Shown piece after piece: positions 8,979-30,865 of a DNA stretch of 32,846 bases; positions within the stretch are counted from its first letter, which is position 1, and every line of letters starts with the position of its first letter. This DNA is from a filamentous cyanobacterium CCP5 (GTDB lineage Bacteria; Cyanobacteriota; Cyanobacteriia; Phormidesmidales; Phormidesmidaceae). A program made the translations under genes and the position numbers. The stretch is from contig PYEQ01000005.1 of the NCBI GenBank assembly GCA_003017785.1, positions 1-32,846 of the forward strand, written 5' to 3'. The notes beneath the pieces were generated by a model that was not told the DNA's origin, searched no databases, and was given only the letters and a program-made list of their open reading frames with translations.

Positions 8979-9899
8979 TTACCCCATTCCCATAGTGGCC
9001 GAGTCGAACAAAATCAGAGATATGAAAAAGTCCACAACAAACAGCGCAACCCAAGTCGTTACGACAGCTGCCGTCGCTGACTTACCGACGCTTCGGCTAC
9101 AGGTGGTGGTTAGACCCCAGCAGCATCCAGCTAGGGCAGTCATTGCACCAAAAATCACTGATTTCAGCAGCACCGCTGCTAAATCTTTCAAGGTGAGAGC
9201 TTCTCGGATGGAATCTAAGAACTGAGATGTAGTTAAGTCAAATAGATGGGTAGAAATAAAGACCCCTCCCCCGATGCCCACAACTAAACCCAGAACAGTT
9301 AGAACAGGCAGCATGAGGGAGCAGGCCAGTACCCGAGGGACTACTAGATAATCAACGGGATCGGTGCGCAGAACTTTGAGAGCGTCAATTTGATCCGTGA
9401 CTTTCATGCAGCCAATTTCGGCCGCAAATGCTGAACCCACCTGTCCAGCTAAGATAGCAGCCGTCAGAATTGGGGCCAGCTCTCGACAAAACGCTAAGGC
9501 AAATGCGCCCCCCAAAGCGGAAATTGCTCCAAATCTCACCAGTTCTCGGGCAGTTTGCATGGCAAAAATCATGCCTGCAAATAAGTTAGTCATCAGAATC
9601 GGAGTCACGGAGCCGGGCCCAGCCACCGCCATTTGCTCCATGAGATGCTGGCGATCAATTCGCCCTCTCAAAATGCGCATTAGAACCTGCCCCCCCAGAA
9701 ACATCCCCATCAGCAAATGATAGGAACAGGACTTTTGCTTTAATCCAGACTGTTCAGAAAGCTCATAGGCCTGGCTCAGAGACCGAGAACGGTAGCTTTT
9801 AGAGGGTTGCTTATGAGTCCAAAACGTTTTAACCATAAAATTGGCCAGATAGGAACAGCAGCTGTAACACGGCTTAATTCTCCGATCGGTCCTAAGCAT
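8979..9899 (-). CDS. MlaE/YrbE-family lipid ABC transporter permease
   Basis: A 306-aa membrane protein. From about residue 63 it matches the MlaE permease family: FLGGQVLMRILRGRI, AVAGPGSVTPILMTNLFAGMIFAMQTARELVRFGA, then CRELAPILTAAILAGQVGSAFAAEIG, the most conserved block, and VTDQIDALKVLRTDPVDYLVVPR. About five membrane helices follow. MlaE moves phospholipids or other lipids between the inner and outer envelope together with an ATPase (MlaF) and an MCE protein (MlaD); neither is encoded nearby. The N-terminus is longer than usual (family about 260 aa); an internal ATG at 9836 would remove 21 residues. Neither start has a clear ribosome binding site, so the true start is uncertain. It converges with the pentapeptide gene. 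Confidence 0.88.
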   Translation of the reverse strand: MLRTDRRIKPCYSCCSYLANFMVKTFWTHKQPSKSYRSRSLSQAYELSEQSGLKQKSCSYHLLMGMFLGGQVLMRILRGRIDRQHLMEQMAVAGPGSVTPILMTNLFAGMIFAMQTARELVRFGAISALGGAFALAFCRELAPILTAAILAGQVGSAFAAEIGCMKVTDQIDALKVLRTDPVDYLVVPRVLACSLMLPVLTVLGLVVGIGGGVFISTHLFDLTTSQFLDSIREALTLKDLAAVLLKSVIFGAMTALAGCCWGLTTTCSRSVGKSATAAVVTTWVALFVVDFFISLILFDSATMGMG

Positions 9900-10346: not shown

Positions 10347-11345
10347 ATGGGTAATCAAGAGTTTGACTTTGAAGCTATTCGCACTAAACTGCAGCGGCAG
10401 CAATCCCCTCAGGCCAGGAAAGCAGCCTCTGCAGCCTGGATAGACTGGGAAGCTTCGCCAGGTATTGCTCCTGGCAAGCGCGCCAGTCTGTCTCAGTTGA
10501 ATGGAACCGTCGCGGCGCTTCAGCAGCGTTCTGTAGCCCATCGCGAAAATTCCCCCAGACATGACTACCGGGATGAGGCACTGAATCAACGACACCAGCG
10601 GCTGTCACAAAACCTCCAACTCCATCGCGAAAGACTCTCTCAAAAAGCCCAAGAGATCAATAATCTTTCTGTTCAGCAAGAACGGGCCATGCTGGAAATG
10701 AAGGATGTAGCTGAACGATGGCAAAGGGAATTGAAGGCATGTATCGATTCAGCCGACATCTCCCCGGCGGTAGCGGAATCACTTATGGGTGAATTTCTGT
10801 TTGACTGCGAGTCAGCGGTGCTGGCTTGGGCGGACTCTAGAGCTGATGACATTGTGCTTACCTATCGATCTGCCGACTTAGATCAGGCTACTCGTGAGGC
10901 TAATCAACTGGCCCATACCCTCCGCCAGCAGAGTGTGGCTAATTTTGGTCCAGGAAGCGATCGCTGGCTAGATGAGTGGCAGACCTTCTGGGCAGAGCCC
11001 GTAAATGGCCTTCGGGAAGCTTGGACCTGGCTACATTCATCCCTGCAACAGTGGTGGCAAGCAGCCGCTGGCCAAAGCTCGAGGCGGCCTTATCGTAGGC
11101 CATCTGCCCCATCCTTCACTCTAATTGACGGAGTCATTTGGCTGGGCAGCGGTATTTTTAGCCGGATTATTTTGGATTTTGTGCTCAGCCTCTATCCAGG
11201 CCTATGGTCAGTGGCGGTTGCTATTGTTACGGCCATGACCGCCTACGCTCTTTACCGTGCGACCCTGGCTCCTAAGCTTGACTTTAGTCTGGCCTATCGA
11301 GTCTTGCTGGCCATCGGCGGACTGATCATTGGTGGACGTTTTTAG
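10347..11345 (+). CDS. Uncharacterised coiled-coil protein with C-terminal membrane segments
   Basis: A 332-aa protein I cannot assign to a named family. Residues 1-55 are polar and begin MGNQEFDFEAIRTKLQRQ. Residues ~75-135 have heptad-like, Gln/Glu/Arg-rich sequence consistent with a coiled coil (NLQLHRERLSQKAQEINNLS). A helical middle section follows. From about residue 250 there are three hydrophobic segments (GVIWLGSGIFSRIILDFVL, WSVAVAIVTAMTAYALY and YRVLLAIGGLIIGG). There is no signal peptide, so the coiled coil is probably cytoplasmic with a C-terminal membrane anchor. It heads four co-directional genes (to 14042) whose other products look envelope-targeted; the next gene starts 90 bp downstream. 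Function unknown. Confidence 0.8.
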   Translation: MGNQEFDFEAIRTKLQRQQSPQARKAASAAWIDWEASPGIAPGKRASLSQLNGTVAALQQRSVAHRENSPRHDYRDEALNQRHQRLSQNLQLHRERLSQKAQEINNLSVQQERAMLEMKDVAERWQRELKACIDSADISPAVAESLMGEFLFDCESAVLAWADSRADDIVLTYRSADLDQATREANQLAHTLRQQSVANFGPGSDRWLDEWQTFWAEPVNGLREAWTWLHSSLQQWWQAAAGQSSRRPYRRPSAPSFTLIDGVIWLGSGIFSRIILDFVLSLYPGLWSVAVAIVTAMTAYALYRATLAPKLDFSLAYRVLLAIGGLIIGGRF

Positions 11346-11435
11346 GTCTTCGTTTCATAGGCCCTCGTTTTCAACCGAGCTTCGTTGATATCCAAGTTTG
11401 AGATTGGTTGATTTTAATCGTTGGAGGACGATTCC

Positions 11436-11873
11436 ATGGTTTCTAGCCGCTACCGTCACCCTTCCCAAGTTCAGTCCCCACCAGTGGTGAAACCACTTCT
11501 GGCGGGCTGCCTGATGTTTGCGATTGTCGGCCTGATGTTTGATTTCCACGGTCTGCGCCAGTGGTTATCGCCCTCATCGGCTAGGCGTAGCGGTCAGGTC
11601 AGTCAACCGAGCCAGTGCAACAAAGTGGTTCAGAGTGAGGCGCGCTTGACCCGTGAACAGCTAGCAGAATTGCTGACTGTTCCTGAAAGAGATACTAAAG
11701 AGCGCATCCGAGAGATTGTGGCTGAACCTTACTGTCGGCTACCAGCCATTGATGTGCGGTCTGGGGTCTCTGCCGAGAGGGAATCTTATCCTCTGGCTTT
11801 TGATCCAGAAACGCAGCTAGTGCTGCTATTTGAGAACGATGAATACGCCGGCTATCGGTTCAGCTTTGAGTAG
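11436..11873 (+). CDS. Uncharacterised single-pass membrane protein
   Basis: A 145-aa protein from the ATG at 11436, chosen because GGAGG (11423-11427) sits 8 bp upstream; a TTG at 11421 lies on that ribosome-binding site and is unlikely. One hydrophobic helix (about residues 19-36, LLAGCLMFAIVGLMFDF) is followed by a polar, probably periplasmic domain. That domain holds a conserved-looking segment ARLTREQLAELLTVPERD and a C-terminal block ending YAGYRFSFE. Two Cys (in SQCNKV and EPYCRL) could form a disulfide. I do not recognise the family. The stop is 6 bp from the next start, strongly suggesting an operon with the lipoprotein gene. Confidence 0.78.
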   Translation: MVSSRYRHPSQVQSPPVVKPLLAGCLMFAIVGLMFDFHGLRQWLSPSSARRSGQVSQPSQCNKVVQSEARLTREQLAELLTVPERDTKERIREIVAEPYCRLPAIDVRSGVSAERESYPLAFDPETQLVLLFENDEYAGYRFSFE

Positions 11874-11879
11874 AGCACC

Positions 11880-12416
11880 ATGGTGACGCAGAGCGATGGG
11901 GTTCAGGCAGCCCCCATCAGCCAGTTAGAAGTTTTGACATCAATTCCTCTAAAGCTGCTGCACTGCCTGGTCGCGATCGCCTTGGGCGGCACGGCTATTC
12001 TTGCAGGATGCCAGCTCGAACCGGTTACGCCTGCCCGACAGGTGGCTATTCAGCAAACTTGGGAACTGGCGGCCGGACATCGGGTCGCTGGCCATCTCGT
12101 TGTTGCCAGCCTAGGGGATGTGACCATAGAACTGAGCGGTCACCCAGTCCGAGCACCCTTCTCAGGGAGAGTGGAATTAGCCGCTCAACCGGTCGGCTGC
12201 GTTTATTTTTCCGCCACTGAAATTCCCGCTTATCTATTTCGCTTTTGCGGCTTGCAACATCTACGGCTAGGTCCAATCACTGCAGGTGGAGTGATCGGAA
12301 CAGGTCCAAGGGTTCACTTCACAACTCTACGTCGCCAGCCTGACGGTACTTGGGCCATTGTGGAACCCTCGAGCCAAATTCTGGAGCGAGCGCTCAGTCC
12401 CCAAAACTTTCACTGA
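11880..12416 (+). CDS. Predicted lipoprotein with M23-like beta domain lacking catalytic zinc ligands
   Basis: A 178-aa protein with a hydrophobic stretch (about residues 24-43) ending in the lipobox LAGC (Cys44), so it should be lipidated and anchored outside the inner membrane. The n-region before it is unusually long (about 23 residues). The mature part includes AGHRVAGHLVVASLGDVTIEL, then VRAPFSGRVEL and IGTGPRVHFTTLRRQPDGTWAIVEP. This alternation resembles the beta-sheet core of M23/LytM or lipoyl-like hybrid-motif domains, but the usual HxxxD and HxH zinc ligands are not visible. A catalytic peptidase is therefore unlikely; a binding or activator role, as for degenerate LytM proteins, is a guess. 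It lies 6 bp after the single-pass membrane protein gene. Confidence 0.78.
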   Translation: MVTQSDGVQAAPISQLEVLTSIPLKLLHCLVAIALGGTAILAGCQLEPVTPARQVAIQQTWELAAGHRVAGHLVVASLGDVTIELSGHPVRAPFSGRVELAAQPVGCVYFSATEIPAYLFRFCGLQHLRLGPITAGGVIGTGPRVHFTTLRRQPDGTWAIVEPSSQILERALSPQNFH

Positions 12417-12470
12417 TCAGTTCATCTCTCTTCTTTGTTCTGTTCCCCCTAAAAGCTTCGGTTGAGCCCC

Positions 12471-14042
12471 ATGAAGTCCTTTCCATCCTTATTTGCCATG
12501 AGTGCCCTGCTAGCCCTGGCCGGTCAGGGCATGGCTCAGGCTCAAGATATCGTCCTGAATTTTGAGCTAGAGACCCAGCCAACCTCGCAAAAGGAAGATA
12601 TAGATTCGGAGTTGTCCGCAGGGCCGCAGGATGAAGCTGAGGCCATGGCTGTCCAGTCTGCCGATGGAGTGGCCCCTTTACCCATCCCTGACCATGGCGC
12701 GAATCCACCCATCTCTAGGAATTCGGGGAGTACTATCTCTGCTGGCAAATACGGTGGAGCAAATGCGATCGCTCTTGCCCAAGCTGATCCCACCAGTGCA
12801 GCCAAGATGCTACCCCCGCCACCGCCGATCGAGGAGCCACCGCTCTACATTGTTGCTGAGCCTAAACCAACCTCTACCGCTAAAGCAGTAGCCAGGGAGA
12901 ACTGGGCGTTGGCATTTGATGCTTCCCCTGTTTCCACAACGGCGATCGCCGAAGCTGCTCCAGAGCCAGCTATCAGGTCACAGGAGGAGAAAGCAGCAGC
13001 CATAGAGGATCTGGCTCCTTTCGATCCATTCGCAGGGGGCACCGATTCGTTAGTCGCCCGCATCGTGGGTAGTGCGGAGGGCACCCGTACCCCCAGTGGT
13101 CAGCATACGGCGGCTTACTTTGGCCACCAGGATCCAGGAAACGGTGTCTGGAACATGGGCACATTCTCCTATCAGCATGGGGCTCAAACCCCAGAGGAAG
13201 CGGACCAAAAACAGCTCGCTCGACTGAAGAGACAGACACAAGTACTGATGCAGAAAGCGGCCGATAAAGGAATTGACCTTACCCTGGAGGAAAAGCTAAA
13301 CGGCATCGATCTGGCCAATCAATCGCCTTTAGCAGCCATTGGCCGAGTTGGATACATTGACCGTCTTGCCGAAGCCCGAAAGTCAGGCTTAACCGGAGAA
13401 GCCGCCATCATCAATGCCCGGACTCGGTCCTACCTCAATCCCGATACCAACCGCTGGAATGCCCCTGGCCTAGGTAATACAACTGAAGGCATCACTCGCG
13501 ATCAGACCCGGCGCATGAACGCCATTAGCCAAGCCCTTCAAGCGTATCAACAGGAGAACCCTAGACGCCTCACTCCCCAACTAGCGAATCATTCTAGCCC
13601 CGAGACGACTGCCCAGGCACCCCCCTCTACCTCTGCCGCGATCACCAAAGATACCGTTCCCCTAGAACTGTGGAACACCGATACCGATATCCATCCCCTG
13701 CCCCAGGAGCAAGTCCCTGCGGCTCAGACGGATCCAACCACCATCCTTTCTAGCGATTCACCCACAGCGGCCGCTCCCACCAGTCGAGTATATTTACCTG
13801 AGAACAAGGACCCAGCCCCGGCTAAACGCCCAAAAGAGAAACCAATTTCTGCCCCCATCTCGAAGGAGACAGCGTCTCAAAATATCATGGCTAGTCCTCC
13901 TCGAGAGGAAGCTGAATCAGCGCCAATAGTTGAACTAGGTGCCTCAGAGCAGCCCAATGATGCGTTACCCACTGCTCTGGCCGAGGCCGAAGAACCTATC
14001 GACGCCGCCCTGAAGCAAAGCGTGCCCGCCAATCCGATATAA
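12471..14042 (+). CDS. Secreted Pro/Ala-rich protein with central lysozyme-like block
   Basis: A 523-aa protein from ATG 12471; a TTG at 12462 is less likely because the ATG opens a good signal peptide (MKSFPSLFAMSALLALAGQG, cleavage likely near MAQAQD). Residues ~25-185 and ~365-523 are low-complexity, rich in Ala, Pro, Glu, Thr and Ser, and probably disordered. Between them lies a compact segment starting LVARIVGSAEGTR (Glu203) and containing YFGHQDPGNG and WNMGTFSYQHGAQTPEEAD. It continues with a helical region including SPLAAIGRVGYIDRLAEARKSGL and RRMNAISQALQAYQQ. An early Glu before a Gly-rich loop is reminiscent of lysozyme/transglycosylase folds, but I cannot confirm this. It starts 54 bp after the lipoprotein gene and closes the four-gene run. 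Confidence 0.75.
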   Translation: MKSFPSLFAMSALLALAGQGMAQAQDIVLNFELETQPTSQKEDIDSELSAGPQDEAEAMAVQSADGVAPLPIPDHGANPPISRNSGSTISAGKYGGANAIALAQADPTSAAKMLPPPPPIEEPPLYIVAEPKPTSTAKAVARENWALAFDASPVSTTAIAEAAPEPAIRSQEEKAAAIEDLAPFDPFAGGTDSLVARIVGSAEGTRTPSGQHTAAYFGHQDPGNGVWNMGTFSYQHGAQTPEEADQKQLARLKRQTQVLMQKAADKGIDLTLEEKLNGIDLANQSPLAAIGRVGYIDRLAEARKSGLTGEAAIINARTRSYLNPDTNRWNAPGLGNTTEGITRDQTRRMNAISQALQAYQQENPRRLTPQLANHSSPETTAQAPPSTSAAITKDTVPLELWNTDTDIHPLPQEQVPAAQTDPTTILSSDSPTAAAPTSRVYLPENKDPAPAKRPKEKPISAPISKETASQNIMASPPREEAESAPIVELGASEQPNDALPTALAEAEEPIDAALKQSVPANPI

Positions 14043-14283: not shown

Positions 14284-14724
14284 ATGCAGGACTCAATTCC
14301 TCTAACTAAACCAATTCGCTCTCTGGAAGATGCCGTTGAGCGATGCCAGGTTTTGGGTATGCGTCTCAGCCGCCAGCGCCGGTACATTTTGGAACTGCTT
14401 TGGCAGGCACGGGAACATCTTTCTGCCCGGGAGATCTATGATCGCCTGAATCGCCAGGGTCGAGAAATCGGTCACACCTCGGTATATCAAAACCTGGAGG
14501 CGCTTTCAGAGCAGGGAATTATTGAGTGTTTGGAACGCTCCGACGGCCGGCTATATGGTCATACCAGCGATTCCCACAGTCACGTCAACTGCCTCGACAC
14601 CGATCAGATTATTGATATTCAGGTTGAGCTACCGGAGGCTTTGATTAGGCAGGTAGAGGCTGAAACCGGTGTCAAGATCAGCGATTATCGAGTGGATTTT
14701 TATGGACGCAAAGAGAAAGCGTAA
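14284..14724 (+). CDS. perR: Fur-family transcriptional regulator, PerR/FurC type
   Basis: A 146-aa regulator from the ATG at 14284 (a TTG 54 bp upstream would add residues that do not resemble the family). The winged-helix domain reads LGMRLSRQRRYILELLW, then HLSAREIYDRL and GHTSVYQNLEALSEQGIIE, with HTSVYQNL as the recognition helix. The dimerisation domain carries the metal-ligand run DSHSHVNC. No pair of CxxC zinc motifs is present. The overall pattern (RSLEDAVERCQVLGMR, LYGHTSDSHSHVNCLDT, DYRVDFYG) fits the cyanobacterial PerR/FurC group, which senses peroxide via a bound metal and represses oxidative-stress genes. Distinction from FurA and Zur rests on my recall of these sequences. Its targets cannot be seen here. 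Confidence 0.82.
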   Translation: MQDSIPLTKPIRSLEDAVERCQVLGMRLSRQRRYILELLWQAREHLSAREIYDRLNRQGREIGHTSVYQNLEALSEQGIIECLERSDGRLYGHTSDSHSHVNCLDTDQIIDIQVELPEALIRQVEAETGVKISDYRVDFYGRKEKA

Positions 14725-26734: not shown

Positions 26735-29326
26735 ATGAATAAGATCATTTCTGATAGCAATTCGACTGAAAACTCTGAATATCGGTGGCGAGGCCACTGG
26801 TTATTGATAGTTAACTTTTGCTGTCTAGCAGTTTTCTTTTGGCTGCCTAATAGCTACCTTCGAATGGTGGGATGGCCCTGGATGTTAATTTGGCAGCTTG
26901 GCTTTTTGTCTATTGCAATATTAACTATCTGGATGTTGCGTCAAATCCAGATTCCCTTTGAACCCTTGGGCCATGGATTTGATTGGTTAACAGGAGGATT
27001 TACTCTTTTAATTCTGCTATCGATATTTAAGGCACCAGTTCCTCAATTAGCAGTTTGGTATGCTGCCATGGCTGGTGGATATATCTGTTTGATCTATGTT
27101 TTGCACAACTACATGAGGTTAAGGACTCAATACTTACAGCATCTTTGGCTAGGAATAGTGGCTGTTGGTTTAGGCACTAACGTCATTTCACTATCGCTTT
27201 GGCGCCCGTCTCTATCCATGTGGCTGTCCAATGATTTCAGCGAAGCCGTTCGTAATGCTCAACCACTAGGGCATCACAATTTTGTAGGCGGCTTTGAATT
27301 GCTTGTGCTACCTCTGAGTGCTACCTATGCGCTCTCGAAAAACGGCTGGCAGCGACGACTAGGGGCGATCGCTAGCATCCTGTCTTTGATTATTCTGTTT
27401 ATCTCGGGATCTCGAGGGGCTCTATTAGGGGTCATTGTAATGGGGTTGGCAGCTTGCTGCTTTTTGATCACTCAAGCGCCTCCTAAGCATCGATTAACGC
27501 TTGCGGGATTAGGATTACTAGCATTGTCTGGATTCATTGTGGCGACCCTGGCTAATCCTCGAATGAGGCAAGTGTTGTCTCTGATTAGGAATGCAATAAG
27601 CACGCAGTCTAACCCTTTGGCAGCTGTATTGCTTGATGGCCCAGTGCTTGATCGATGGCAAATGCTCAGAGCTGCGGGTAATATTCTCAAGGCTGAGCCC
27701 TTGACCGGAGTAGGGCTTGGCAATATGGCGCGAGTCTACAGTCTCTATCGGTCTGAGACCATCGGAGCCCTAGGCGATAATATCCAGCAGTTACACAACA
27801 CACCGGCTCAGATTCTCGGCGAGCTGGGACTTGTTGGATTTTCAATCCTGATTGCATTGATCTTTTGCGCAGGTAGGCTGTGGTTATGTCTCAGCAAGCA
27901 GCCCTTGTCTCAGCAAGATAGATTGTTGCTAGTGGGTGTTGGTTTGAGCTTGCTATCGTATGGATTTTTCAGCCTCACGGACTATCAGGTAGAAAATATA
28001 GCGATTTCAGCGCTGTTGACGTTTGACTTAGTTGTGTTGCTAAGCCTGGCTAAATCCTATCTTCCGGCCTCAAAGCTATCGTCATCTAGTTTTCCACAGC
28101 AAATACGAAAGCCAGCTAGCATTGTGGGCTTGTTAATAATTGGAATCATTCTGCGAATTTGGGTCCCCATGGACATCGCTGCTTGGTTACAAAATAGTGC
28201 TGCTACTTCATCGCTTGCTGAAAATCCTGTTCAAGCTGATGCTCAATGGGATCGGGCTTCGAGGTTCACCCCTTGGGATCCCGTTCCCCCGATGCTAGCG
28301 GCCCACAATCTGAGAACACTAGCCCAAACAGCTGCTTCTACCGATCAAGAAGTTTTGAGGAGGCAGGCTATTGAGTATTACAACAGAGTTGTTGAGGCGG
28401 CTCCCAATGACGGGGAGTTTCACCATAATCTAGCCAACCTCCTCTTACCAGTGGATTCTCAGCAGGCTGAAATTCATGCCGGTAAAGCGATTCAGCTGAT
28501 GTCCCGCGATAACTATTATGCTTACTTTCAGCTTGGATTAGCCTATCTCTTGCAGGAAAAAATGGACCAAGCGATTGATGCGTTTGCGTTAGAGATTTTG
28601 GCTAATCCAAGCTCAGCGGCTATCAATGGCTGGTCCGATCAGCCTTTTCTATCGCGAATATCTGAGCCAGTCATGGCGATGACGGTTGACTTATATGACC
28701 AGCTACTAAGCCAGCTAGATTTAAATCTACCAACCCATCAAAGCGTATATGAGCAGAGTCTTTTAGTCCGATGGTGGCATAATTTCCCGTTGCCTGAGTA
28801 TGAGGCTCAATATTTACGACCTCTCGTGCGTGCTCTGGTTGTAGCAGAAACAGAGCAATCATCTGCACTAGAGATACTCAATGATCGGATTCAAGCCGCT
28901 GAAGCGGGAGAAGGTGAGTGGCTACTAAGGGCCTGGATAGATCCAGTTCGATACCTAGAGCCTTATATTCAGCGATTTCAAGTATCTCCAGACGAGGCGA
29001 AAATAATTGAACAGAGCATAGACCAACATCGAAATATTCGAGACTGGCTGAATGCTGATCCTGTTACTGTCGATAATCGGGCTCGCGTTGCGATGTCCTT
29101 TACCTATCGCAATCGCTGGGCCCAGGGGAGATATGATATTTTCCGACCTGAGGGCATTGCGCTTGGGAGGATGGCTTCTAAGCTACAGCTATTTATCCCT
29201 CATCCTCATGTGATGGTTCCCTTGGATGATTTAATTAATCGCTACCAGGCAGATGAGTTAGGTTTCCCCCATCCCGCGACTGTTGGGTTTCAGCTAGTTC
29301 AGACGATGAATTTTAGAACAAATTAG
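26735..29326 (+). CDS. O-antigen ligase/polymerase-like membrane protein with TPR-like C-terminus (copy 2)
   Basis: An 863-aa paralog of the preceding gene. The start is ATG 26735, with AAGGA (26721-26725) as ribosome-binding site; an in-frame TTG at 26729 is less likely. Shared landmarks are WLPNSYLRMVGWPWMLIWQL, then LGHHNFVGGFELLVLPL, ISGSRGALLG and DRWQMLRAAGNILKAEPLTGVGLG with NIQQLHNTPAQILGELG, followed by TPR-like repeats (FHHNLANLL, FQLGLAYLLQEKMDQAIDAF). By eye it is clearly more AT-rich than copy 1 and uses AT-ending codons more often. Its stop overlaps the stop of the convergent 262-aa gene by 4 bp. Its specific acceptor is unknown. Confidence 0.87.
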   Translation: MNKIISDSNSTENSEYRWRGHWLLIVNFCCLAVFFWLPNSYLRMVGWPWMLIWQLGFLSIAILTIWMLRQIQIPFEPLGHGFDWLTGGFTLLILLSIFKAPVPQLAVWYAAMAGGYICLIYVLHNYMRLRTQYLQHLWLGIVAVGLGTNVISLSLWRPSLSMWLSNDFSEAVRNAQPLGHHNFVGGFELLVLPLSATYALSKNGWQRRLGAIASILSLIILFISGSRGALLGVIVMGLAACCFLITQAPPKHRLTLAGLGLLALSGFIVATLANPRMRQVLSLIRNAISTQSNPLAAVLLDGPVLDRWQMLRAAGNILKAEPLTGVGLGNMARVYSLYRSETIGALGDNIQQLHNTPAQILGELGLVGFSILIALIFCAGRLWLCLSKQPLSQQDRLLLVGVGLSLLSYGFFSLTDYQVENIAISALLTFDLVVLLSLAKSYLPASKLSSSSFPQQIRKPASIVGLLIIGIILRIWVPMDIAAWLQNSAATSSLAENPVQADAQWDRASRFTPWDPVPPMLAAHNLRTLAQTAASTDQEVLRRQAIEYYNRVVEAAPNDGEFHHNLANLLLPVDSQQAEIHAGKAIQLMSRDNYYAYFQLGLAYLLQEKMDQAIDAFALEILANPSSAAINGWSDQPFLSRISEPVMAMTVDLYDQLLSQLDLNLPTHQSVYEQSLLVRWWHNFPLPEYEAQYLRPLVRALVVAETEQSSALEILNDRIQAAEAGEGEWLLRAWIDPVRYLEPYIQRFQVSPDEAKIIEQSIDQHRNIRDWLNADPVTVDNRARVAMSFTYRNRWAQGRYDIFRPEGIALGRMASKLQLFIPHPHVMVPLDDLINRYQADELGFPHPATVGFQLVQTMNFRTN

Positions 29327-30111
29327 TCTTGTTCTGGCAAGATGATACTGAACCTACCAGCTGAGTCAATTTCGACTTTGCCTCCTAGAGCTTGAATGTT
29401 TCTGATGGCTAAAGCCTGGGTTCTTTCATGGGAACTGTTGCCCAAAACAATGGACCAGGCATTAATCTGAGCACGCCTGCTAGATGGGTTGCTGGCTAGT
29501 GCCTGGGCTGTTTCTTCAGAGAGTGCAGCGATACTTCTGGCTTCAGGAGTATCACTCTGCATTGCCCAGTCTGCAGCCATTTGAAAAGACGCCTGAGCCA
29601 GTGATGGGGCACCCAAGAATAAGAGTTCATCGGTTCCCTTATAGCGCCAGACGTAATACCCACGCTCAGGAACACCTGGGGATAGATGGCGCAGACCCTC
29701 TTCAATCAGCGCAATCGTCTTATCTGGTAAACCGGCATAAAGACTGGTGCTACTCGAGAGCATGAGATAGTTGTGTACATAGTAAGGATCTTGACGAATG
29801 ATGATCTCGAAGAAATCCGGGCTGAGTCTATAACCCTGCGTATTTCTGATTTCGTCGTCTCCGAAATATTGAAGAAATTCTAATAGGAACCAATCTGAAA
29901 TGAGGTTGCTGTATCCAAAACTAGGTAGCTTCTTCCAGATAGAAAGACGCGCAATTTGACTTATATCGTCTTGTGGCTGTTGGCTAGCAGCGCCTGAATT
30001 TAGAGAATTTTTCAATGAGGCTGTTTGCAATGCAAGAATACCCGTAGTTGCACAGATAAAGCTGACGCAATAAGTAAGCTTTCGTAATCCCAGACGTATA
30101 AATTTCTTCAT
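29323..30111 (-). CDS. Membrane-anchored TPR-like protein of unknown function
   Basis: A 262-aa protein starting at ATG 30109-30111. An N-terminal helix (about residues 12-32, LTYCVSFICATTGILALQTAS) anchors it. The rest resembles helical repeats: SDWFLLEFLQYFGDDEIRNTQGY, then DPYYVHNYLMLSSSTSLYAG and RGYYVWRYKGTDELLFLG, ending with GGKVEID and a short beta-like tail. I recall similar conserved hypothetical proteins in cyanobacteria near pilin or polysaccharide genes but cannot name a function. It lies 161 bp downstream of the pilin gene, same strand, with a strong terminator in between, and converges with copy 2 of the O-antigen-ligase gene (4-bp overlap). Confidence 0.78.
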   Translation of the reverse strand: MKKFIRLGLRKLTYCVSFICATTGILALQTASLKNSLNSGAASQQPQDDISQIARLSIWKKLPSFGYSNLISDWFLLEFLQYFGDDEIRNTQGYRLSPDFFEIIIRQDPYYVHNYLMLSSSTSLYAGLPDKTIALIEEGLRHLSPGVPERGYYVWRYKGTDELLFLGAPSLAQASFQMAADWAMQSDTPEARSIAALSEETAQALASNPSSRRAQINAWSIVLGNSSHERTQALAIRNIQALGGKVEIDSAGRFSIILPEQD

Positions 30112-30132
30112 AGCTTTATTTGCTGAAAGGCA

Positions 30133-30141
30133 TGTGGATAA
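30133..30141 (-). other. Consensus-type DnaA box upstream of the 262-aa gene
   Basis: TGTGGATAA here reads TTATCCACA on the minus strand, a perfect match to the general bacterial DnaA-box consensus. It lies between the pilin terminator and the start of the 262-aa gene. A single isolated box can occur by chance or mark DnaA control. Confidence 0.35.
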
Positions 30142-30149
30142 TGCAATAA

Positions 30150-30187
30150 ATACAAAAGCGGATAGAAACCTCTATCCGCTTTTGTAT
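30150..30187. terminator. Strong hairpin terminator after the pilin gene
   Basis: A perfect 17-bp stem (30150-30166 with 30171-30187) and a 4-nt loop AACC. The inner stem GCGGATAGA/TCTATCCGC is flanked by AAAA on one side and TTTT on the other, so it can work as an intrinsic terminator in both directions. It most likely ends the pilin transcript, read on the minus strand. Confidence 0.85.
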
Positions 30188-30204
30188 CTTTATGACCTGC
30201 ACAA

Positions 30205-30241
30205 GCTAATAATAAAATGCCTTGAGGCTGTTATTATTAGC
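30205..30241 (-). other. Second hairpin in the pilin 3' region
   Basis: GCTAATAATAA (30205-30215) pairs perfectly with TTATTATTAGC (30231-30241). Inside, GCC (30219-30221) and GGC (30226-30228) can form a small stem around TTGA. It starts about 30 nt after the pilin stop and precedes the terminator in the pilin transcript. A role in mRNA stability is plausible. Confidence 0.6.
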
Positions 30242-30271
30242 AATTCAGCTGGTAGCTGAGATTACTAAGCA

Positions 30272-30865
30272 CTACTCGATTGTCTGGAATTCGCCAGCGC
30301 ATTCCGGGCCAGTAGTGGCGTCATAGGTAATGCTGTTAGCGAATGAATAAGGAGCCACAGTATCTAATGCGCCATCAGCTTGAACAGGGGTGTCTACAGT
30401 CTCACACAGTACGGCCAGAGTCGTTGCTTCGTTCGTAGCCTGAACGTTGCCAATACCGAAACCACCGACATACCCTTTCAAAGATGAATCGGCATCGTAT
30501 ACATCGTTATCTACATCCCATGGTCTGGCTGCATTGACGCCGGCTGGATCGGTGGTATCCAACTCAATTTCATAGGAATAGAATTGAGTGAGAGGCTTAA
30601 TACCGAGTCCTAGCTGACCCAGGTCAGGTGTGAATTCTGATCTTTCTAGGTAATAAGCCTGCTGGGCGCGGTTCATAGAACCGACATAGGTCTTGGCTTC
30701 AGACTGGCGGGCTTTGTTAGCCTGGTTGAGGAAGGAAGGCAGAGCAATGGCAGCCAGAATGCCGATGATGATGATAACAACCAGCAGCTCAATTAGGGTG
30801 AAGCCGCCTTCTTCTTTCTTAGTGATGAAATGCTGTAGAAGTTTGGTTTTCAGAGTAGATTTCAT
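30272..30865 (-). CDS. pilA: Type IV pilin-like protein (PilA family)
   Basis: A 197-aa prepilin. The leader is basic (KSTLKTKLLQHFITKKEEGG) and ends at a class III cleavage site G21-F22, followed by TLIELLVVIIIIGILAAIALP with the conserved Glu5 of the mature protein (Glu26). The globular part contains QANKARQSEAKTYVGSMNRAQQAYYLE, typical of cyanobacterial PilA-type pilins, and two Cys near the C-terminus (AVLCETVD, GPECAGEF) that could form the disulfide-bonded loop. A good ribosome-binding site (AAGGAG) lies 11 bp before the ATG at 30863-30865. The product would be processed by PilD and assembled into pili used in motility, adhesion or DNA uptake; whether it is the major or a minor pilin cannot be told. 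Two strong hairpins follow the stop codon. Confidence 0.92.
   Translation of the reverse strand: MKSTLKTKLLQHFITKKEEGGFTLIELLVVIIIIGILAAIALPSFLNQANKARQSEAKTYVGSMNRAQQAYYLERSEFTPDLGQLGLGIKPLTQFYSYEIELDTTDPAGVNAARPWDVDNDVYDADSSLKGYVGGFGIGNVQATNEATTLAVLCETVDTPVQADGALDTVAPYSFANSITYDATTGPECAGEFQTIE

Follow-up and report, generated by a model that had tools for sequence, protein, structure and literature searches.

Closest Described Systems

Degenerate LytM proteins are known regulators of amidases. Control by such domains has also been described for enzymes that act on glycan strands. In Caulobacter, the LytM domain of DipM stimulates the lytic transglycosylase SdpA; this non-catalytic domain controls a glycan-cleaving enzyme via its degenerate groove, and among activators of lytic transglycosylases DipM has been reported to be the first that acts by protein contact (PMC10336132). 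In PrgK, a degenerate LytM domain lowers the activity of the muramidase domain of the same protein (PMC11323569). The analysis presented here concerns a 32,846-nucleotide stretch of DNA (the window) from the filamentous cyanobacterium CCP5 (contig PYEQ01000005.1, assembly GCA_003017785.1), and within it a cassette of four genes, referred to as A, B, C and D. With a probability of roughly 0.6, these genes encode a cell-envelope module for controlled cutting of peptidoglycan, in which D would be the cutter, C a regulator held by B, and A a membrane partner.

The DipM-SdpA pair resembles C and D in bringing together a non-catalytic LytM domain and a glycan cutter, the latter a candidate one in the case of D, and DipM is among the fold matches of C. 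Unlike C, DipM is soluble, carries LysM domains and serves several enzyme partners, whereas C is a lipoprotein whose gene neighbours those of a single, unrelated lysozyme-like protein and of a partner, B, with which it can be fused. PrgK, a protein of pCF10 conjugation, likewise holds a degenerate LytM domain and a muramidase in one control unit (PMC11323569). However, PrgK is a single polypeptide with a CHAP domain and belongs to a Gram-positive secretion system, whereas the cassette consists of separate genes. An assignment as a PrgK-type conjugation hydrolase, which would sit within a type 4 secretion gene set, was set aside: no secretion genes were seen among the open reading frames (ORFs) of the window, and the flanking genes encode an MlaE-family permease and a Fur-family regulator. 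EnvC and NlpD share a degenerate LytM domain with C; NlpD is also a lipoprotein, and EnvC is among the fold matches of C. Their targets are amidases, whereas the cassette contains no amidase gene. The predicted fold of the conserved domain of D resembles that of the GH24 phage-type lysozymes and SpmX, with a Glu where its first helix ends, but there is no sequence-profile similarity.

The LytM-Like Lipoprotein and Its Plasmid Relative

The cassette comprises four ORFs on the plus strand at the positions proposed in the original prediction, with the gaps of 90, 6 and 54 bp that it had given. Its statement that none of the products is recognised also holds: A, B, C and D match no Pfam, NCBIfam or PHROGs family, scans of members of their family alignments against the same collections returned empty or scattered sub-threshold matches, and sequence searches of the Protein Data Bank (PDB) with the four proteins gave nothing credible. 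PDB matches obtained with a larger C profile were rejected as repeat artefacts, in which weak matches are summed and no single domain exceeds 2.3 bits. The targeting and membrane features are likewise present. Protein A has C-terminal hydrophobic stretches, B has one membrane segment, the hydrophobic segment of C ends in the lipobox LAGC (Cys44), and D has a signal peptide that ends in AQA, followed by QD.

The AlphaFold model of C has an overall pLDDT (predicted local distance difference test) of 87.7. Foldseek matches to the PDB with E<=0.001 comprise lysostaphin, the LytM domain of PrgK (second best) and the M23 domain of EnpA, the best E-value being 1.6e-4. Nearly all of the best 45 matches are M23/LytM proteins, including zoocin A, DipM and EnvC. 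In profile-profile comparisons, C gave P 2.2e-5 against M23 domains mainly from the genome of the window and P 5.8e-7, over 100 columns, against mostly D-associated M23 domains; unrelated control pairs gave P 0.04-0.67. The Pfam M23 model does not detect C. Fold and profile comparisons agree, and the beta domain of C is assigned to the LytM/M23 fold on the basis of the predicted structure.

Across 81 sequences, the catalytic His is replaced by Gly and the first zinc His is absent in every case, and the first His of the HxH motif is kept in at most nine. Position 146 is His in 40 of the 56 rows from ABCD cassettes and Gln in 10 of the 11 stand-alone BC copies. How the first zinc motif appears varies with the alignment: ungapped, it is substituted, while in profile and BLAST alignments it coincides with or adjoins a deletion. 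Close to this motif is an invariant Asp (D80), and one zinc ligand might survive there; the full set is restored under no reading. Judged from these residues, the protease active site has been lost and C should not be a catalytic M23 peptidase, as the original prediction had supposed for its M23-like domain. Cys107 and Cys123 are invariant, which suggests a periplasmic disulfide. C thus displays two features of degenerate LytM regulators, a missing active site and a predicted lipid anchor.

The clearest evidence that C may be a decayed peptidase from a D-associated lineage is provided by NIES2135_61530, a protein of 457 residues (L061:9786-11159) encoded on a 411-kb plasmid of Leptolyngbya boryana NIES-2135 (AP018204.1). 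It matches the C profile with E 1.3e-7 in the set searched and the C protein of the window with E 8e-8 in a single pairwise BLASTP comparison. A tblastn search with the latter protein returned no C-type plasmid protein, and NIES2135_61530 surfaced only with the C profile. The segments GDTVAG and APFDGEVQP and the positions of the Cys pair are shared with C, and HNGVD, MCH and HLH of the active site are all preserved. In the BLASTP alignment, a gap covers the HNGVD region and MCHFS stands opposite FCGLQ of C. The lipobox of C is missing from the plasmid protein, which carries a transmembrane segment together with a C-terminal region (annotated as DUF2927 in a sister record). Two annotated genes separate its gene from a D-type gene further downstream.

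The surrounding plasmid cluster (L061:9786-12492) contains the intact M23 protein and the D-type gene among unannotated small genes. The cluster may contribute to transfer or entry.

The Lysozyme-Like Domain of D and Its Links to M23 Domains

The conserved domain of D was compared with known structures by means of its predicted model. The first 22 Foldseek matches in the PDB are all lysozyme-type proteins or proteins with a T4-lysozyme part, and the fold matches include the muramidase domain of SpmX (the best), phage endolysins, and T4 and goose lysozymes. Against a viral structure library, a phage homologue of the domain scores best (9e-9), and most of the matches ranked after it are lysozymes and endolysins. 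Fifteen positions, including the Glu of the AEGTR motif, His45 and Asp47, do not vary across 78 sequences of cyanobacterial and viral-contig origin. The lysozyme-like block noticed earlier is supported at the level of the predicted fold, and structure prediction for the cassette yields two cell-wall folds, LytM/M23 for C and lysozyme-type for D. Neither of the two refuting outcomes set in the original prediction, a gene order unconserved in all relatives or folds foreign to the envelope, was observed. Searches of Pfam with 25 members of the D family gave no credible match, and the domain has no entry in the releases of Pfam, NCBIfam and PHROGs that were searched.

M23 and D domains are linked in several settings. 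They are fused in a plasmid protein (L062), and another protein (L080) combines a D domain, an M23 domain that falls under the Pfam cut-off and a peptidoglycan-binding domain. Fusions are also found in two cyanobacterial proteins (L252, in which the M23 part lacks HxxxD, and L256) and in viral contigs, where both domain orders occur (L183/L184 and L185). For several phage and plasmid copies of D, the fused or neighbouring M23 domain has its motifs intact, an M23 gene directly adjoins a D-domain gene at two loci (L196, L197), and one phage M23 protein (L064) has a partial D-like region. Genes B and C, in turn, are fused as one ORF at two loci (L252, L253). As far as gene and domain arrangements can indicate, these independent linkages argue for a physical or functional partnership.

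In phages, the D domain forms the C-terminus of proteins of ~950-1020 residues (L063, L188-L195, L198, L200), in L063 near a terminase gene. It is a candidate virion-borne wall-cutting domain in these podovirus-like contigs. In another genome (G066, L262:4644-6167), which has neither B nor C, a single protein joins a D domain to an S-layer homology domain.

Conservation and Distribution of the Cassette

Conservation of the gene order, which had been named as the first check on the original prediction, was assessed at two levels. Of the 65 genomes in the order, 59 have a match to A, 63 to B, 64 to C and 62 to D. In about 53 of them, according to the authors' count from coordinates, A-B-C-D are adjacent on one contig; several of the remaining genomes are interrupted by contig ends. 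The C profile fetched 80 loci from GTDB, all with the genes on a single strand, comprising 56 ABCD, 7 ABC, 6 BCD and 11 BC arrangements. Full cassettes are also present in two further families (L254, L257, L260, L261). The hosts are Leptolyngbya-like and related filamentous lineages, for example Nodosilinea, Phormidesmis, Oculatella, Elainella and Halomicronema. Across the phylum the cassette is restricted in distribution: in a survey of 244 genomes, the nine with B are precisely the nine with C, and D domains occur in 20.

Among close relatives, the ratio of nonsynonymous to synonymous substitution rates (dN/dS) is 0.03-0.29 for each of the four genes, and these values indicate purifying selection on all of them. 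Together with the genome counts, they place the observation well beyond chance. The evolutionary distances of A-D correlate beyond those of MlaE with partial r of 0.65-0.75, a weak signal. In protein A, the N-terminal part is helical and the three hydrophobic stretches fall in the final 75 residues. Two invariant cysteines of B, Cys61 and Cys100, could form a disulfide.

Additional copies of parts of the cassette were also observed. On other contigs, the genome of the window carries one further copy each of B and C (G000:C186:1354-1746 and G000:C867:2411-2872), probably the stand-alone BC pair known from relatives. In one genus, two genomes hold extra BCD copies (L068 and L069 in G014, L070 and L071 in G019). 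A transposase-like ORF splits the C of L069 into N- and C-terminal parts.

Proposed Mechanism and Competing Explanations

In the proposed mechanism, D would be exported to the periplasm, where its lysozyme-like domain would be the working part, most likely cleaving glycan strands with the Glu of AEGTR as the catalytic acid. C would be a membrane-anchored lipoprotein whose LytM domain, devoid of the protease site, may provide a docking and control surface for D, and cutting by D would be confined to the place and time of C's presence. B is predicted to be bitopic and may bind C through its periplasmic domain, the two being one protein in another lineage. The coiled coil and C-terminal membrane domain of A may anchor or position the complex. 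C and D would descend from a D-type domain paired with a still active M23 peptidase, an arrangement found on cyanobacterial plasmids and in phages. Control of D by C is proposed by analogy with DipM-SdpA and PrgK. Recruitment or activation is favoured over inhibition because BC without D and D without C are awkward for a pure inhibitor. The original prediction had envisaged a peptidoglycan-remodelling or septal complex in which a degenerate M23 domain regulates a hydrolase-like protein. The regulatory core of this idea is the best-supported reading, given the M23-D fusions and adjacencies, the intact plasmid relative and the two precedents, while the septal element is speculative and the interpretation as a whole is partly supported.

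A further-reaching proposal is held tentatively, at rather less than even odds. It states that D founds a new peptidoglycan-cleaving family and that the cassette arose by domestication of a wall-cutting pair from a phage or plasmid, with C a decayed protease turned dedicated regulator of D, forming a lineage-specific wall-remodelling machine of filamentous cyanobacteria. The system is attractive in that C has just one candidate glycan-cutting partner encoded next to it. Since the lost residues are revealed by the intact plasmid relative, the switch from enzyme to regulator is directly testable. The D domain is shared with phages and absent from the family releases searched; consequently, the annotation of cyanobacterial and phage wall enzymes would improve with its description.

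Several results weigh against a module for controlled cutting. A and B are without structural assignment, and promoter and terminator scans at the cassette gave results no better than those on shuffled sequences. D resembles lysozymes at the level of the fold only, with a best PDB E-value of 0.035 and template-modelling (TM) scores of ~0.40-0.45. Membership in GH24 (PF00959) was rejected, as the hhalign comparison with cyanobacterial GH24 gave P 0.12, which is background; D is therefore called lysozyme-like in fold and non-GH24. BC pairs without D account for 11 of the 80 loci. In two genomes, G034 and G040 (L026), the row consists of A, B and D, and B and D lie too close together to accommodate C; both genomes carry a C paralogue elsewhere. 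Leptolyngbya sp. BL0902 (G039) has no A, B or C and retains only a plasmid M23-D fusion; the module is therefore dispensable. Finally, with SpmX as the best PDB match of the predicted structure, a non-catalytic role for D is conceivable.

The muramidase domain of SpmX serves localisation more than catalysis. If the lysozyme-like domain of D were similarly repurposed for binding or localisation, the cassette would be a peptidoglycan-binding scaffold in which B and C are structural. This explanation is unlikely, though it is the strongest of the competing ones. It draws on the match to SpmX, on the long Ala/Pro-rich linkers of D, which fit a wall-binding protein, and on the missing sequence link to the catalytic GH24 family. 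However, the invariant Glu, His, Asp and Ser of D are kept over viral contigs, plasmids and chromosomes, and the phage and plasmid copies of D linked to intact-motif M23 domains fit a hydrolase. Somewhat more doubtful is the view of C as an inhibitor or immunity-like lipoprotein that shields the cell from D, the two being a self-restrained lytic pair derived from phage or plasmid exolysins. A precedent exists in the LytM domain of PrgK, which down-regulates its own muramidase domain (PMC11323569). D domains also occur in phage virion-like proteins and beside M23 genes, and at L068 and L069 additional BCD copies have transposase- or partition-like genes in their vicinity. Such a pair is difficult to reconcile with the existence of BC without D, with the two genomes that carry D without an adjacent C, and with the 11 of 20 phylum genomes that have a D domain but no C. 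It is also conceivable, though improbable, that the four genes are neighbours without joint function, with C acting on another hydrolase, for example an amidase, and D acting alone. The preservation of the order across genera and families speaks against mere proximity, as do the B-C and M23-D fusions, even though BC stands alone in many genomes, D domains occur without BC, and the short gaps are the only operon signal.

Features and Surroundings of the Locus

The coordinates of the features discussed are collected in Table 1.

Table 1. Features of the cassette and its two flanking genes (positions in the window; aa, amino acids; res, residues).
Feature	Position	Strand	Description
MlaE-family permease gene	8979..9899	-	divergent upstream neighbour in 29/56 ABCD loci; outside cassette
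Gene A	10347..11345	+	332 aa; variable N-terminal coiled-coil/linker part and conserved C-terminal membrane domain; in 59/65 order genomes
A, C-terminal membrane domain	11109..11342	+	res 255-332; three hydrophobic stretches; invariant R273, P284, Y303, R318, G325, G330
Gene B	11436..11873	+	145 aa; single-pass, transmembrane res 17-35; conserved C-terminal domain res 61-145
B, Cys61-Cys100 segment	11616..11735	+	both Cys invariant (alignment, 31 relatives)
Gene C	11880..12416	+	178 aa; lipoprotein, degenerate LytM/M23 domain (predicted)
C, lipobox Cys44	12009..12011	+	kept in 79/81 relatives
C, LytM-like beta domain	12060..12374	+	res 61-165; block pLDDT 94-98
C, Cys123-Gly124	12246..12251	+	both 81/81; Gly124 at catalytic-His position of M23 enzymes (MCHF in plasmid relative)
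C, His146	12315..12317	+	remnant of second His of HxH
Gene D	12471..14042	+	secreted; signal peptide 12471-12542, Ala/Pro-rich linker, conserved domain, Ala/Pro-rich tail
D, conserved lysozyme-like domain	13029..13559	+	predicted structure, pLDDT 93.5, predicted TM score (pTM) 0.89
D, invariant Glu of AEGTR	13077..13079	+	end of first helix; 78/78; candidate catalytic acid
Fur-family regulator gene	14284..14724	+	directly downstream; neighbour in 16/56 ABCD loci; outside cassette

The gap lengths given above follow from the start codons used for B and D. For B, the ATG at 11436 was preferred over the TTG at 11421, and GGAGG precedes this ATG. For D, the ATG at 12471 was preferred over the TTG at 12462. 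The assembly that contains the window consists of 906 contigs with 5.7% contamination; the cassette is conserved across isolates, and an assembly artefact is therefore unlikely. A phage or prophage origin of the cassette in the window itself was set aside, the flanking genes being ordinary chromosomal ones.

The top NCBIfam matches of the downstream Fur-family gene are PerR models, far under their cut-offs. In Anabaena, wall-remodelling genes are under the control of FurC (PerR) (PMC10936207); for this neighbour, the parallel is at most suggestive. Regulation of the cassette by the adjoining gene was set aside, as it is present at only 16 of the 56 loci. Elsewhere in the window, a type IV pilin-like gene (30272-30865, minus strand) lies beside a gene for an unannotated secreted or membrane protein, the two spanning the region 29323-30865.

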